This document shows positions 2,998-6,891 of a stretch of 6,891 nucleotides of DNA, piece after piece (the first letter of the stretch is position 1; the number at the start of each line of letters is the position of its first letter). The notes beneath the pieces are model-generated. The model was not told the origin of the DNA and did not search any database. It saw only the letters and a list, made by a program, of their open reading frames with translations. This DNA is from Burkholderiaceae bacterium (GTDB lineage: Bacteria; Pseudomonadota; Gammaproteobacteria; Burkholderiales; Burkholderiaceae), in the NCBI GenBank assembly GCA_030151165.1, contig JASLEM010000445.1, forward strand, positions 1 through 6,891. The letters run 5' to 3'. The position numbers and the translations under genes are program-made.

Positions 2998-3107
2998 TTC
3001 ACCCGGGCTTCTCCCAGGCGGACGGCCCCCTATTTAGGGAGAGCATTCGCCCATCGCCGTCGCGACAATCGCGGCTGGCGGGAGCACTCCGCCGTGCTGG
3101 AGGCCGC

Positions 3108-3485
3108 ATGGTCACAATCTCCCAAGCCCAGTGGGACAAGCTGGGTCAGGACTCGTTCGACGCCCGCCTGATCGCCATCCTGCGCGAGAACCACCCCGAG
3201 CAGGTCGCCCGCATGCCGTTCGCGGAACTCGTCGCCGCGATCCACCGCCAGACGGCCCAGGCCGCGCGCTACGGGCTGCACGACGAGCAGTCCGTCGCGA
3301 CCTACGTCTACACCGCTTTCCTGATGGGCGAGGAGTTCGACCGCCGCATCCCGGCGATCAGCCAGATCCTGCGCGAGCGCCGGATGCCGTCGCCGACGAA
3401 GGCGCAGGCGCTGAAGGACTTCTCCCAGCTCGTCTTCCACACGCTCGAGGGCGGCGCCGCCCCGGCGGCGAGGGGCGCGGCATGA
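3108..3485 (+). CDS. Conserved-looking 125-aa protein of unknown function, first gene of a two-gene operon
   Basis: This small, soluble-looking protein has no signal peptide, membrane segment or cysteine. The ATG at 3108 is supported by GGAGG at 3099-3103, only 4 bases away. The sequence starts with ISQAQWDKLGQDSF, has a mixed helical body (ARLIAILRENHPEQ, AELVAAIHRQTAQAARYGL, SVATYVYTAFLMGEEFD, ISQILRERRMPSPTKAQALKDF) and ends in a low-complexity Gly/Ala tail. The plan of an opening I-x-x-x-Q-W/F-D segment, a central A-x-x-Y-G-L and a following -D-V/A-x-Y-x-F-x-x-G-x-x-F-D resembles small proteins I remember beside type VI secretion spike (VgrG/PAAR) genes. I give that from memory of the pattern with low confidence. 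The last four bases overlap the next ATG (ATGA), so the two genes are probably translationally coupled, and this protein may be a partner or chaperone of the large downstream product. No function can be assigned from the sequence alone. Confidence 0.85.
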   Translation: MVTISQAQWDKLGQDSFDARLIAILRENHPEQVARMPFAELVAAIHRQTAQAARYGLHDEQSVATYVYTAFLMGEEFDRRIPAISQILRERRMPSPTKAQALKDFSQLVFHTLEGGAAPAARGAA

Positions 3486-5449
3486 GCGGCCTGCCGGGCA
3501 TGGGCGGCCCGCTGGGCGACGCCGTGTCGCAGGCCGGGCCGGCCGCGTCGCAGGGTCTGCAGCAACTCGCCGCGCCAGCGCAGGATGCCGCGAGCAAGGC
3601 CGCAGACCTGGCCGCGCAGGCGGGGCAGGTCGCCCAGGCCGCGCAGGACAAGGCGCAGGCGGCCGAGCAGGCCGCGCAGGCGCAGGCGCAGCAGGCCGTC
3701 CAGCAGGCCCAACAGGCGGCGCAACAGGCGCAGCAGGCCGCCACGGACGCCGCCGCCAAGGCGCAGCAGGCCGCGGCCGACGCCGAGGCCAAGGCGCAGC
3801 AGATCGCCGCCGACGCGCAGGCCAAGGCCGAGGAAGCCGAGCAGCAGGCCCAGCAGGCCGTGCAGGACGCCGAGGCCAAGGCGCAGCAGATGGCGGCCGA
3901 CGCCCAGGCGAAGGCCGAGCAGGCCGTGCAGGACGCGGAGAACAAGGCCAACGAGCTGGAGCAGCAGGGCCAGCAGGCGGTGCAGGACGTCGAGGGCAAG
4001 GCCCAGGCGCTGGCCGACCAGGGCGAGCAGGCCGCCAAGGACGCCGAGGCCAAGGGCGAGCAGATGCTCGACGACGCCAAGGGCGCCGCGACCCAGGCCG
4101 AGCAGCAGGCCGAACAGGCGGCGCAGCAGGCCCAGCAGGAGGCCGAGCAGGCCGCCCAGCAGGCGCAGCAGATGGCCCAGCAGGCCGCGCAACAGGCCCA
4201 GCAGGCACTCCAGGCCGCGCAGGACAAGGCCGCGCAGCTCGCCCAGCAGGCCGAGGCCGCCGCCCAGCAGGCGCAGCAGATGGCCCAGCAGGCCGTGCAG
4301 GCCGCCAAGGCCCAGGCGCAGGCGGCCGCCGCCGCGGCCGAAGGCGCGTTGGGCGACGCCTCGAGTGCCGCGTCCGGCGCGGTCGGCAGCGCGATGGCCG
4401 CCGCCACCGGGGCGATCGGCAACGCGTTCTCGTCGCTGCAGAACGTCGCGACGCCCGCCGTCCCGTGCGGCTGCGGCGCCCACGTGCCGCCCGCGTTCGA
4501 TGCCGGCTCCGCGCTGAGCGGCATCACCGACGGCATGCAGAACGCGCTGCAGAACAACCCGGCCATCTCGGCCTACCAGGACAAGGTCGGCGAGCTGACC
4601 AACGCCTTGAACAACGCGGTGCCGAACGTCCCCGACCTGCCCGACCTGTCGGCGCTCGCGCAGCAGGCTGCCGACGCGCGCGACGCGCTCGAGAAGCAGC
4701 TGCAGAACGCGCTCCCGCCCGCGATGCAGCAATACCTCGCCGACGCCGAGCAGGGCAAGCTGCCCGACGAGGTGACCAACGCGATCAACCAGGCCAAGCA
4801 GCAGGCGCAGGGCTACGAGGACCAGGGCAAGGCCATGGCCGACCAGGCGATGGCGCAGGCCCAGTCGTACGAGGACCAGGGCAAGTCGATGGCGGACTCG
4901 GCGATCGCGCAGGGCCAGGGTTATGTCGACCAGGGCAAGCAGGCGGTCGACTCGGCCGTCGCGCAGGGCCAGCAGGCCGTCGACGACGCGAAGTCCGAGG
5001 CGCAGGCCGCCGTCGCCCAGGCCCAGGCCGCGGCCGCGCAGGCGCAGCAACAGGCGCAGGCGGCCGTGGCGCAGGCGCAGCAGCAGGCCCAGTCGGCGGT
5101 CGGTGCGGCGCAGCAGCAAGCGCAGGCCGCGCTCGCCGCCGCTCAGCAGCAGGCGCAAGCGGCGCAGCAGCAGGGCCAGGCGGCGGTCGCCGCCGCGCAG
5201 CAACAGGCCCAGCAGGCCGTCGCGCAGGCCCAGCAGCAGGCCCAGCAGGCGGCCCAGCAGATCCAGGACGCCGCGAAGCCGCCGACCGACGTCAACCAGC
5301 TCGCGCAGCAGACGCAGCAGTGGCTGCAGAACGCGCCGGACGACGTGCTGAAGAACCTCGCGCCGCCGTCGATGCCTTCGCTCCCGTCCGTGCCCAGCAT
5401 GCCGTCGATGCCGAGCCTGCCGACGATGCCCTCGATGCCCGGCTTCTGA
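3482..5449 (+). CDS. 655-aa Ala/Gln-rich helical repeat protein with a central CxCxxH motif
   Basis: I do not recognise this protein as a named family. The ATG at 3482 sits in the ATGA overlap with the preceding gene and has GAGGGG at 3470-3475 as ribosome binding site. Layout: residues 1-26 are Gly/Pro-rich (MSGLPGMGGP); about 27-287 are a long Ala/Gln helix-forming block; 288-326 are a Gly/Ala/Ser segment; 329-334 are CGCGAH; about 335-440 are mixed, with NVPDLPDLS and a helical QYLADAEQGKLPDE; 443-593 are a second helical repeat block of 18- and 11-residue units; 602-628 contain the only Trp (W614); and 629-655 are a Pro-Ser-Met/Leu tripeptide tail. It has only two Cys (329, 331), one His (334) and one Arg (400), against about 24 Lys, which is striking in GC-rich DNA. 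There is no signal peptide or clear membrane span. Possible roles are a long helical rod, a phasin- or LEA-like surface-coating protein, or a structural part of an injection or secretion device. The strong two-block design, RBS and coupling make it a real gene, but its role is unknown. Confidence 0.85.
   Translation: MSGLPGMGGPLGDAVSQAGPAASQGLQQLAAPAQDAASKAADLAAQAGQVAQAAQDKAQAAEQAAQAQAQQAVQQAQQAAQQAQQAATDAAAKAQQAAADAEAKAQQIAADAQAKAEEAEQQAQQAVQDAEAKAQQMAADAQAKAEQAVQDAENKANELEQQGQQAVQDVEGKAQALADQGEQAAKDAEAKGEQMLDDAKGAATQAEQQAEQAAQQAQQEAEQAAQQAQQMAQQAAQQAQQALQAAQDKAAQLAQQAEAAAQQAQQMAQQAVQAAKAQAQAAAAAAEGALGDASSAASGAVGSAMAAATGAIGNAFSSLQNVATPAVPCGCGAHVPPAFDAGSALSGITDGMQNALQNNPAISAYQDKVGELTNALNNAVPNVPDLPDLSALAQQAADARDALEKQLQNALPPAMQQYLADAEQGKLPDEVTNAINQAKQQAQGYEDQGKAMADQAMAQAQSYEDQGKSMADSAIAQGQGYVDQGKQAVDSAVAQGQQAVDDAKSEAQAAVAQAQAAAAQAQQQAQAAVAQAQQQAQSAVGAAQQQAQAALAAAQQQAQAAQQQGQAAVAAAQQQAQQAVAQAQQQAQQAAQQIQDAAKPPTDVNQLAQQTQQWLQNAPDDVLKNLAPPSMPSLPSVPSMPSMPSLPTMPSMPGF
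3779..4295 (+). repeat. First helical repeat block: 11/18-residue spacing and a 37-bp exact direct repeat
   Basis: Within the Ala/Gln gene, the motif D-[AV]-E-x-K-[AG] recurs at residues 100, 129, 151, 169 and 187, with spacings of 29, 22, 18 and 18 residues. All are sums of 11 and 18, so the motif returns to the same helix face each time. Further on, a 37-bp sequence is repeated exactly at 4151-4187 and 4259-4295 (encoding an AAQQAQQMAQQA segment). The two copies are 108 bp, or 36 residues, apart, which is twice 18. The repeats point to growth of the gene by in-frame duplication of helical units. Confidence 0.8.
4808..5260 (+). repeat. Second helical repeat block: five tandem 18-residue units, then 11-residue units
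   Basis: Five tandem 54-bp units run from 4808 to 5077, each encoding 18 residues. The first three share the pattern Q-[GS]-Y-[EV]-D-Q-G-K-x-[MA]-[AV]-D-x-A-x-A-Q-[AG]; the fourth and fifth decay towards plain Ala/Gln. The fifth overlaps the start of a second series of units beginning AQQQAQ, whose codons start at 5042, 5075, 5108, 5141, 5195 and 5228. Their lengths are 11, 11, 11, 18, 11 and 11 residues. The 11- and 18-residue lengths correspond to 3 and 5 helical turns, so one face of a continuous alpha-helix is kept throughout. Confidence 0.85.
5366..5446 (+). repeat. Pro-Ser/Thr-hydrophobic tripeptide tail
   Basis: The last 27 residues of the Ala/Gln protein are eight tripeptides of the form P-[ST]-[MLV] followed by PGF at the stop codon. 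Six contain Met or Val and two contain Leu. Such a tail cannot be helical and probably adopts an extended, polyproline-like form, in contrast to the helical rod before it. It may act as a terminal docking or recognition element; this is inference. Confidence 0.8.
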
Positions 5450-5473
5450 CCGGCCGGCGCGCCGAATGCCCAG

Positions 5474-5503
5474 CGGGATGATCGGAAACACCGCATCATC
5501 CCG
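5474..5503 (+). promoter_or_regulatory. Hairpin covering the ppk2 ribosome-binding region
   Basis: CGGGATGAT (5474-5482) pairs with ATCATCCCG (5495-5503), and CGG (5483-5485) pairs with CCG (5491-5493), with one bulged C at 5494 and the loop AAACA. The resulting 12-bp stem ends only 3 bases before the ppk2 ATG at 5507 and covers the whole region where a Shine-Dalgarno sequence should lie; no good one is visible. No T-tract follows, so it is not a standard terminator. It could restrict translation of ppk2, end or stabilise the upstream Ala/Gln transcript, or be a DNA operator. Confidence 0.6.
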
Positions 5504-5506
5504 TCC

Positions 5507-6328
5507 ATGAGCAAGAAGAAATCGCACTCGAACAAGCAGAAGCACGACGACCCGGCCATCGACGCGCTCGCCCACGGCGGCGGCAAATACGAGGATCGGC
5601 TGCGCCCGATGCAGGTGCGCCTCAACGGCGTGATGCGGGCGCTGCAGAAGCGCGGCGAGCGTGTCGTCGTGATCTTCGAGGGGCGCGACACCGCGGGCAA
5701 GGGCGGCGCCATCAAGGCCATCTCCGAGAAGCTGAACACGCGCCAGTGCCACATCGCGGCGCTCGGCGTGCCGAGCGAGCGCGAGCAGCGCGAGTGGTAC
5801 TTCCAGCGCTACGTGCCGTACCTGCCGGCCGCGGGCGAGATGACGCTGTTCGACCGCAGCTGGTACAACCGTGCCGGCGTCGAGCTCGTGATGGGCTACT
5901 GCACGCCCGAGCAGACCAAGGCCTTCCTCGAGCAGGCGCCGGTGTTCGAGAAGCTGCTCGTCGACGACGGCATCCGGCTCTTCAAGTACTGGCTCACCGT
6001 CGACCAGGCCGAGCAGGAGCAGCGCTTCGCCGAGCGGCTCGACGACCCGCTCAAGCAATGGAAGCTCTCGCCGGTCGACCTGCAGGCGCGCACCCGCTAC
6101 GCCGACTACGGCCGCGCGCGCGACCGCATGCTGAAGGCGACGCACACGAAGACGGCGCCGTGGACGCTGGTCGACTTCAACGACCAGAAGGAAGGCCGCC
6201 TGAGGCTGATTGCCGACCTGCTGTCGCGCCTGCCCGAGCCGGAGGATCCTGCGCCGGACTTCGAGATCCCGCCGCTCGCGGGCAAGCCGCAACGCGAGAA
6301 GTTCACCGGGCCGCTGAAGCCGATCTAG
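5507..6328 (+). CDS. ppk2: Polyphosphate kinase 2 family protein (polyphosphate:nucleotide phosphotransferase)
   Basis: This 273-residue cytosolic protein belongs to the PPK2 family, which transfers phosphate between inorganic polyphosphate and nucleotides, mostly making ADP/ATP or GDP/GTP from polyphosphate. The Walker A segment is [13 protein letters not shown] (residues 57-69, with K65), and the Walker B segment is [13 protein letters not shown] (114-126, with D116). The lid region with conserved basic residues is [14 protein letters not shown] (185-198) and continues to [16 protein letters not shown] (97-107) and FKYWLTVD (159-166) are further family signatures. The length and single-domain form fit the one-domain enzymes (class I-like); nucleotide preference cannot be read safely from sequence. 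The Lys/Ser-rich N-terminus ([12 protein letters not shown]) is not conserved in the family, but 5507 is the first usable start after the stop of the preceding gene, which is in the same frame. It follows the Ala/Gln gene by 57 bp and precedes hemE by 46 bp. Confidence 0.95.
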
Positions 6329-6333
6329 GCCTT

Positions 6334-6358
6334 GCGCGGCGAGGCGGCCGCCCCGCGC
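6334..6358. other. GC-rich imperfect inverted repeat between ppk2 and hemE
   Basis: GCGCGG at 6334-6339 can pair with CCGCGC at 6353-6358 around a GC-rich centre. No T-tract follows, so termination is doubtful. It is followed by the AT-rich patch GGATAATCC (6361-6369), the only -10-like sequence near the hemE start, but no good -35 element lies 16-18 bp before it. Confidence 0.3.
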
Positions 6359-6374
6359 GCGGATAATCCGCCGC

Positions 6375-6891
6375 ATGTGGCCCCTCCTGAAAAACGACAG
6401 CTTCCTGCGCGCCTGCCTGCGCCAGCCGACCGACACCACGCCGCTGTGGCTGATGCGCCAGGCGGGGCGCTACCTGCCGGAGTACAAGGCCACGCGCGCG
6501 CGCGCCGGCAGCTTCATGGGGCTGGCGACGAACGTCGACTACGCCACCGAGGTCACGCTGCAGCCGCTGGAGCGCTTTCCGCTCGACGCCGCGATCCTGT
6601 TCTCCGACATCCTGACCGTCCCCGACGCGATGGGCCTGGGCCTGTCGTTCGCGGAAGGCGAGGGCCCGCGCTTCGCGAGGACCGTGCGCGACGAAGCCGC
6701 CGTCGACGCGCTCGCCGTGCCGGACATGGACAAGCTGCGCTACGTCTTCGACGCCGTCACCTCCATCCGCAAGGCCCTGGACGGCCGCGTGCCGCTGATC
6801 GGCTTCTCGGGCAGCCCGTGGACGCTGGCCTGCTACATGGTCGAGGGCGCCGGCTCCGACGACTACCGGCGGGTCAAGACGCTGATGTACG
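6375..6891 (+). CDS. hemE: Uroporphyrinogen decarboxylase, N-terminal part (3' end outside window)
   Basis: The window holds the first 172 codons, about half of a family usually 350-370 residues long. The enzyme removes four carboxyl groups from uroporphyrinogen III to give coproporphyrinogen III, a cytosolic step of haem and chlorophyll synthesis. Visible signatures are [16 protein letters not shown] (5-20), the substrate-binding [10 protein letters not shown] (28-37, with R28 matching human Arg37), the [20 protein letters not shown] stretch (61-80, with D78 matching the catalytic human Asp86), PDAMGLGL (83-90), and [16 protein letters not shown] (143-158, with Y154 matching human Tyr164). 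All checked catalytic residues are present. The ATG at 6375 fits the start of known HemE proteins; no clear Shine-Dalgarno sequence precedes it. Identification is secure. Confidence 0.98.

Follow-up and report, generated by a model that had tools for sequence, protein, structure and literature searches.

A free adaptor lobe and an alanine- and glutamine-rich helical partner as a candidate type VI secretion loading module in Burkholderiaceae

What does a pair of overlapping genes do when one encodes a small protein, the other a very long protein rich in alanine and glutamine, and a search with either sequence returns no family? This question is raised by a two-gene operon in a 6,891-nucleotide stretch of DNA from a Burkholderiaceae bacterium (contig JASLEM010000445.1; we call this whole stretch the window). 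We consider it likely that the pair is a loading module for the type VI secretion system (T6SS), in which a free C-terminal lobe (C-lobe) of a Tap-type adaptor serves a translationally coupled cargo of 655 amino acids (aa) and docks on a DUF4123 protein that consists of the N-terminal lobe (N-lobe) only. The two genes and their translation signals are as follows.

3108..3485, + strand: small gene (125 aa), by hhalign, hidden Markov model (HMM), fold, and neighbourhoods a free effector-side C-lobe of a DUF4123/Tap-type T6SS adaptor
3482..5449, + strand: large gene (655 aa, from the ATG at 3482), an Ala/Gln-rich helical protein in cargo position, without a known domain
3099..3103, + strand: GGAGG, ribosome-binding-like (Shine-Dalgarno-like) site of the small gene, spacing 4, read in the sequence
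3470..3475, + strand: GAGGGG, ribosome-binding-like (Shine-Dalgarno-like) site of the large gene, spacing 6, read in the sequence

The stop codon of the small gene and the start codon of the large gene share the sequence ATGA in the window, and the GC contents at the three codon positions (0.70/0.46/0.95 for the small gene and 0.82/0.47/0.96 for the large gene) are like those of the known genes of the window. A preliminary description, made from the letters of the sequence, had reported genes of 125 and 655 aa with an ATGA overlap and good ribosome binding sites, flanked by flagellin and ppk2 genes, and all of this was confirmed by the sequence, the codon-position GC, and Pfam. The two are real genes and their recurrence is beyond chance: 42 of 137 candidate proteins (its own entry included) match the small one at E <= 1e-3, and four genomes contain five further copies of the pair.

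The small protein as a free adaptor lobe

With single sequences as queries, Pfam, PHROGs, and NCBIfam yielded no family above the cut-off for the small or the large protein, and for searches of this kind the earlier statement that neither belonged to a known family stands. It does not stand for the small protein, which could be placed by profile, fold, and context. A profile search with this protein gave 200 matches among 7994 scored candidates. When the small family was aligned with the C-lobes of seven bilobed DUF4123 proteins, hhalign returned a probability of 96.8 (E 2.9e-10, score 63.7), whereas the highest score among 100 column-shuffled control alignments was 24.1; with the window's close family alone, the probability was 96.1. 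An HMM of the small protein from which DUF4123-fused members had been left out matched the C-lobes of four bilobed proteins (E 5e-11, 3e-6, 0.0035, and 0.013), and in a fold comparison the best match was to residues 207-302 of Tap3 from Pseudomonas putida (PDB 9R8G). The protein has the helical C-lobe of a DUF4123/Tap adaptor, and at only 125 aa it has no N-lobe, Pfam finding no match to the DUF4123 domain (PF13503) in it. Genome G101 has a fused case, a DUF4123 protein whose C-terminal part is the match to the small family. Profile, fold, and context together mark the small protein as a DUF4123/Tap T6SS adaptor C-lobe that stands alone, and this homology supports the earlier suggestion that it could be an adaptor or chaperone.

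Weak resemblances of the two proteins to HTH_AsnC, HSP70, IFT57, Wag31, SMC, and Scy lay below the cut-off and were rejected as composition or chance. Sequence searches of the PDB returned mostly DnaK/Hsp70 fragments, together with a pterin dehydratase and other entries, none with an E better than 0.02; these were likewise set aside, and Tap3 was absent from them.

Eight of 71 pattern matches in genome contigs were confirmed as loci with the small gene. In four (L001 to L004) the small protein is 63 to 65% identical to that of the window; the other four (L005 to L008) are distant, at 36 to 41% identity. Homologues were found in 4 of 399 genomes sampled at order level, 13 of 299 at family level, and 9 of 369 at class level; these samples overlap and contain genomes already known. 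The genome searches scored the best candidates per genome, so all such counts are lower bounds. For a survey of neighbourhoods we compiled 19 distant loci, leaving out the pair loci L001 to L004, the fused G101 case, the borderline loci L049 to L051 (E 1e-4 to 3.5e-4), and the class-level loci; a script found the downstream open reading frame in 13 of the 19. By our own reading, 15 of the 19 adjoin T6SS genes or sit directly upstream of an effector-like gene.

L005, L006, L007, L008, L028, L029, L056: T6SS genes adjoining the C-lobe gene
L027, L031, L033, L034, L057, L058, L060, L061: effector-like gene directly downstream of the C-lobe gene
L030, L032, L059 (lipase-like remnant), L062: unclear neighbourhood

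Pfam supports eight of these 15 assignments (L005, L007, L008, L028, L029, L056, L031, and L060). In L008, from a deltaproteobacterium, the genes directly before the small gene encode, by Pfam, VgrG, PAAR, and a DUF4123 protein that also has a forkhead-associated-like domain. The small gene lies behind tssM/IcmF in L005 and L007 (Pfam) and, by resemblance only, in L006; the order is tssM-tagF-small in L056, and VgrG is encoded nearby in L028 and L029. On the effector side, the small gene is followed by a gene for a 1304-aa Rhs protein in L060 (RHS E 6.7e-85) and by one for a lipase-like protein in L031 (Lipase_3 E 2.3e-5). The partner in L057 is lipase-like with Lipase_3 below the cut-off, and those in L027, L033, and L061 are so called from a GHSLGGG motif only. 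L058 also stayed below the Pfam cut-off, L027, L030, L034, and L061 had no Pfam family, and L033 lay outside the scan; the products in L034 and L058 we take to be effectors from motifs. A 4-bp start/stop overlap (ATGA or GTGA), as in the window, is present at five loci (L027, L031, L034, L057, and L058). Distant homologues thus lie next to vgrG and/or an effector gene, and the pair of the window adjoins its presumed cargo only. The resemblance to small proteins encoded next to type VI spike genes, noted at the outset, is borne out by the distant homologues in vgrG-PAAR-DUF4123 clusters and beside tssM. The neighbours that Pfam names are T6SS genes, no search having been aimed at genes of extracellular contractile injection systems.

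Two similar proteins are encoded in tandem 3' of the lipase-like effector in L031 (1932-3426) and L057 (3716-5259); one of the two at each locus was scanned and is an ankyrin protein, and the tandem genes are likely duplicated immunity genes. The deltaproteobacterial locus L029 has a VgrG-DUF4123-C-lobe cluster that includes, at 9393-10565, a PAAR protein carrying a Zeta-toxin domain (Pfam). At L049, L050, L051, L103, L105, L106, and L107 the C-lobe starts a longer conserved protein whose second part has CDID/CDLD and CGLRD-like motifs, and in the four loci checked (L103, L105, L106, and L107) the gene for this protein lies directly behind an N-lobe-only DUF4123 gene. Single proteins appear to contain two C-lobe domains in tandem in L099, L115/L122, and L116/L123 and, more weakly, with a second domain that is not significant, in L060 and L082.

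Docking lobes and secretion genes in the same genomes

Where, then, is the other half of the adaptor? Homologues of the small protein were present in 24 genomes overall, and we searched 13 of these directly for DUF4123. All 13 had it, at 15 places; 14 of the 15 proteins end within 51 residues of the Pfam domain and have no C-lobe, the fifteenth being the bilobed protein of G101. Among the remaining 11 genomes, the family search found DUF4123 in G457, G554, and G643 and none in G630. The 36 DUF4123 loci that were fetched, which were the better-scoring ones, comprised 28 N-lobe-only proteins, seven bilobed proteins, and one (L104) with a conflicting frame choice. Within the family sample, 12 of the 13 genomes that have a small homologue also have DUF4123, versus 39 of the 286 that lack one (Fisher p 2e-9, uncorrected for relatedness, with the 299 genomes matched by handles); the 12 include three fused or adjacent cases (G101, G554, and G643).

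In G002, which carries a pair of the window type, the N-lobe gene is part of a T6SS core cluster, where it lies behind genes for VgrG and a DUF4280 protein and in the company of those for the sheath, TssK, TssL, TssM, and TagF (Pfam). In G001, G003, and G004 it is on the TssC contig, within about 14 kb, in the same order by resemblance. TssC was found in nine of ten tested genomes, including all four pair carriers, and was not found in G137. All four relatives that carry the pair (G001 to G004) have both TssC and an N-lobe-only DUF4123, the window's own genome being outside this count.

Passages on Tla1, and on published work on Tap6 and Tap14, describe the DUF4123 part as touching VgrG and the C-terminal part as touching mostly the effector (PMC13133936), and a separated C-lobe would therefore be the cargo-side half. 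We read the arrangement as a split adaptor, with a docking lobe at the spike and detached, cargo-specific lobes. The small protein would bind its translationally coupled 655-aa partner, probably at a conserved N-terminal segment and/or a Cys motif of the latter, and would then dock on the N-lobe-only DUF4123 protein of the main T6SS cluster, beside VgrG and the DUF4280 protein. The long helical protein would thereby be loaded on the spike and exported. Homology, gene order, and the presence of the partner genes are observed; physical binding, export, and this division of labour between N-lobe and C-lobe in these species are what we infer.

Five genomes have one DUF4123 match and several small homologues (two each in G002, G003, and G455, four each in G075 and G530), and the deltaproteobacterium G008 has three of both. 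Tentatively, we go one step further: a single N-lobe of the core cluster may dock several detached C-lobes with different cargoes, of which G530 and G075 would be examples, and in the window's branch an immunity-less Ala/Gln or Pro-Met rod, a non-toxic structural T6SS cargo, may have taken the place of the toxin. If docking and recognition lobes are indeed separate genes, this would account for the ability of a single machine to take on orphan effectors dispersed across the genome, and a free C-lobe profile would locate them even without vgrG nearby. Among T6SS cargoes, a toxin-less rod, if true, would be out of the ordinary.

The pair might instead descend from a T6SS adaptor and its cargo but have left the system, the small protein now chaperoning the rod inside the cell or via another export route. 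Its site by housekeeping genes, between atpC and ppk2, with no T6SS gene in the fetched flanks, fits such a departure, as does the lack of a toxin family and of an immunity gene described below. We nevertheless regard it as unlikely: the four carriers all keep a T6SS sheath gene along with the N-lobe-only DUF4123, and other C-lobes, too, have partners, lipase-like or Rhs, that sit away from the DUF4123 gene (G002 and G530).

The large protein and the pair in relatives

In the T6SS loading module that we favour, the position of its gene would make the large protein the cargo. Its features are as follows.

3482..3610, + strand: conserved N-terminal segment (GGPLGDA...QQLQQLAAP...DAASKAA), 60-68% identity to the other five copies, 24 invariant columns
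3536..4411, + strand: helical block 1, residues about 19-310, period 3.60-3.65, a low-confidence helix in the model
4466..4483, + strand: Cys329/Cys331/His334 motif in the hinge, with CxCxxC as its counterpart in the five copies of relatives
4766..5272, + strand: helical block 2, residues about 429-597, period 3.60-3.65, low-confidence model
5360..5446, + strand: Pro-Ser-Met tail; the four longer copies of relatives have a long PxMPxMP tail

The two helical blocks, the Cys/His hinge, and the Pro-Ser-Met tail had all been seen before and were found again here. The accompanying idea that the protein is a spike is unsupported: by position it would be cargo, and the AlphaFold model (six sequences) predicts long helices at low confidence (pLDDT 62.9, pTM 0.26), with a rod shape plausible. 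The conserved N-terminal segment is a putative adaptor-recognition region. Copies range in length from 111 to 655 aa, and their middle is an Ala/Gln coil of variable length. The motif of the window, CxC plus His, has no third Cys; the protein ends in a second coil and a short tail, and the 111-aa copy has no tail. In a weak comparison, the Cys motif is similar to the CxxC of the effector-like products at L027, L031, L033, and L061.

Directly upstream of the large gene, an adaptor gene for the C-lobe only is present in all six copies (the window and five in G001 to G004). With a profile of the N terminus built from the five copies of relatives and that of the window, we found the large protein in 4 of the 299 family genomes, as five copies, each directly behind a small gene. 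We looked for large proteins that stand alone in relatives, which would have spoken against the earlier interpretation, and there was no copy without the small gene in the 299 genomes, in which at most 22 candidates per genome were scored. Residues 1-60 as a homologue query gave 0 matches among 960 candidates, probably owing to composition.

In Pfam, PHROGs, and NCBIfam, the large protein showed no family above the cut-off, whether marker or toxin domain (MIX, PAAR, Rhs, lipase, nuclease), and no immunity gene adjoins it, ppk2 being the next gene. These results, together with the freedom of the rod and tail to vary, suggest a non-enzymatic role, and with neither a recognised toxin domain nor an immunity gene, our first guess for the exported rod is a non-toxic structural or surface role. 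An ordinary T6SS toxin of unrecognised activity, for example membrane disruption by the helices, with immunity encoded elsewhere or unneeded, would share the cargo position, and effector-like proteins of sibling modules (L057 and L031) also have helical, Ala-rich N-terminal parts. It strikes us as rather improbable, however, because these same lipase-like modules do have ankyrin proteins downstream, whereas ppk2 lies directly 3' in the window, L001, L002, and L004, and L003 has a second pair and then the contig end. The C-terminal part, moreover, consists of coil or of PxMPxMP repeats, and the 111-aa copy of L003 lacks it.

Two further roles are very doubtful. The rod-like helical prediction, low in confidence, would suit a structural component of the T6SS spike or tube, but a spike protein is a core part and only the four family genomes carry the large protein, with its gene outside the T6SS cluster in L001 to L004. 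A secreted metal-binding cargo would draw on the CxCxxC of all five relatives' copies and the 21, 16, 27, and 19 MxxM units of four of them, which could bind Cu(I), although the protein of the window has only two MxxM units and lacks the third Cys, and the 111-aa copy has no MxxM.

The relatives at L001 to L004 are Betaproteobacteria of the Burkholderiales, including the cultured species Scleromatobacter humisilvae. The order is atpC, small gene, large gene, followed by ppk2 and hemE in L001, L002, and L004; the contig of L003 stops behind a second pair. In L003 (1363-4040) the pair is a tandem duplicate whose second large protein, of 111 aa, stops just past the Cys motif. The ATGA overlap is present in four of six pairs (window, L001, L002, and L004), and the two pairs of L003 are spaced by some tens of bases. 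In the window, ppk2 (Pfam E 1.4e-86) begins 57 nt beyond the stop of the large gene and is followed by hemE. Three other features lie upstream of the pair or across it.

492-917: atpC, upstream of the pair
1039-2823, - strand: flagellin between atpC and the pair, running from a start near 2823 to a stop at 1039
3308-6439, - strand: 1043-aa antisense open frame, codon-position GC 0.92/0.47/0.79

The antisense frame was rejected as a gene, its codon-position GC being unlike that of the window's genes; it is an artefact of high GC and Ala/Gln codons. Unlike in the window, no flagellin separates atpC from the small gene in L001 to L004. Since the small gene directly follows atpC there, the flagellin looks like a separate insertion in the lineage of the window, and a flagellar link was dropped.

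At sites without the pair, the interval between atpC and ppk2 is about 90 to 110 bases in G417, depending on the ppk2 start codon (L129, 967-2334; no small-gene match), and holds one other gene in G423 (L128). As the two genes are close together or one other gene apart in these genomes, the pair looks like a gained module, with loss in G417 and G423 as the alternative. Three pattern matches in viral contigs yielded none that was confirmed, and tblastn of plasmid and phage collections found no relative, so that a phage or plasmid origin is without support.

Comparison with known systems

TolA domain II and other Ala-rich rods have an Ala-rich single-helix composition. The large protein is like them in composition, and no shared family was found in Pfam, PHROGs, or NCBIfam. 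With T6SS cargo effectors, such as the lipase-like or Rhs proteins of L027, L031, L057, and L060, it shares a position downstream of a C-lobe gene and a helical N-terminal part, besides, for L027 and L031, the similar Cys motif noted above. Those effectors carry a toxin-like domain and, in L031 and L057, have ankyrin proteins downstream, whereas the large protein of the window has neither.

The small protein matches the helical C-lobe of DUF4123/Tap (Tec) adaptors, such as Tap3, in profile and fold, and its gene likewise lies upstream of a presumed cargo. It differs in having no N-lobe, which in relatives is a separate gene of the T6SS cluster. DUF4123 adaptors are already known, and those described in the passages concerned are single two-domain proteins. 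A passage on vgrG loci names six domain families, the DUF4123 C-lobe not being among those named there (PMC10673891), and the DUF2169-based accessory complexes described elsewhere are a different set (PMC13373197). No account of a stand-alone DUF4123 C-lobe or of a rod cargo was found in the open-licence literature searched, against which the combination is apparently new, the DUF4123 adaptors and TecT/co-TecT being known. The latter is the known chaperone/co-chaperone case of TseT in Pseudomonas aeruginosa (Burkinshaw 2018, as cited in PMC11925235 and PMC6560169), which, going by the passages that describe it, resembles the present arrangement in using a DUF4123 protein and a second accessory protein for one effector. 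Here, by comparison with that description of co-TecT only, the C-lobe genes are spread over the genome and stand by different cargoes.

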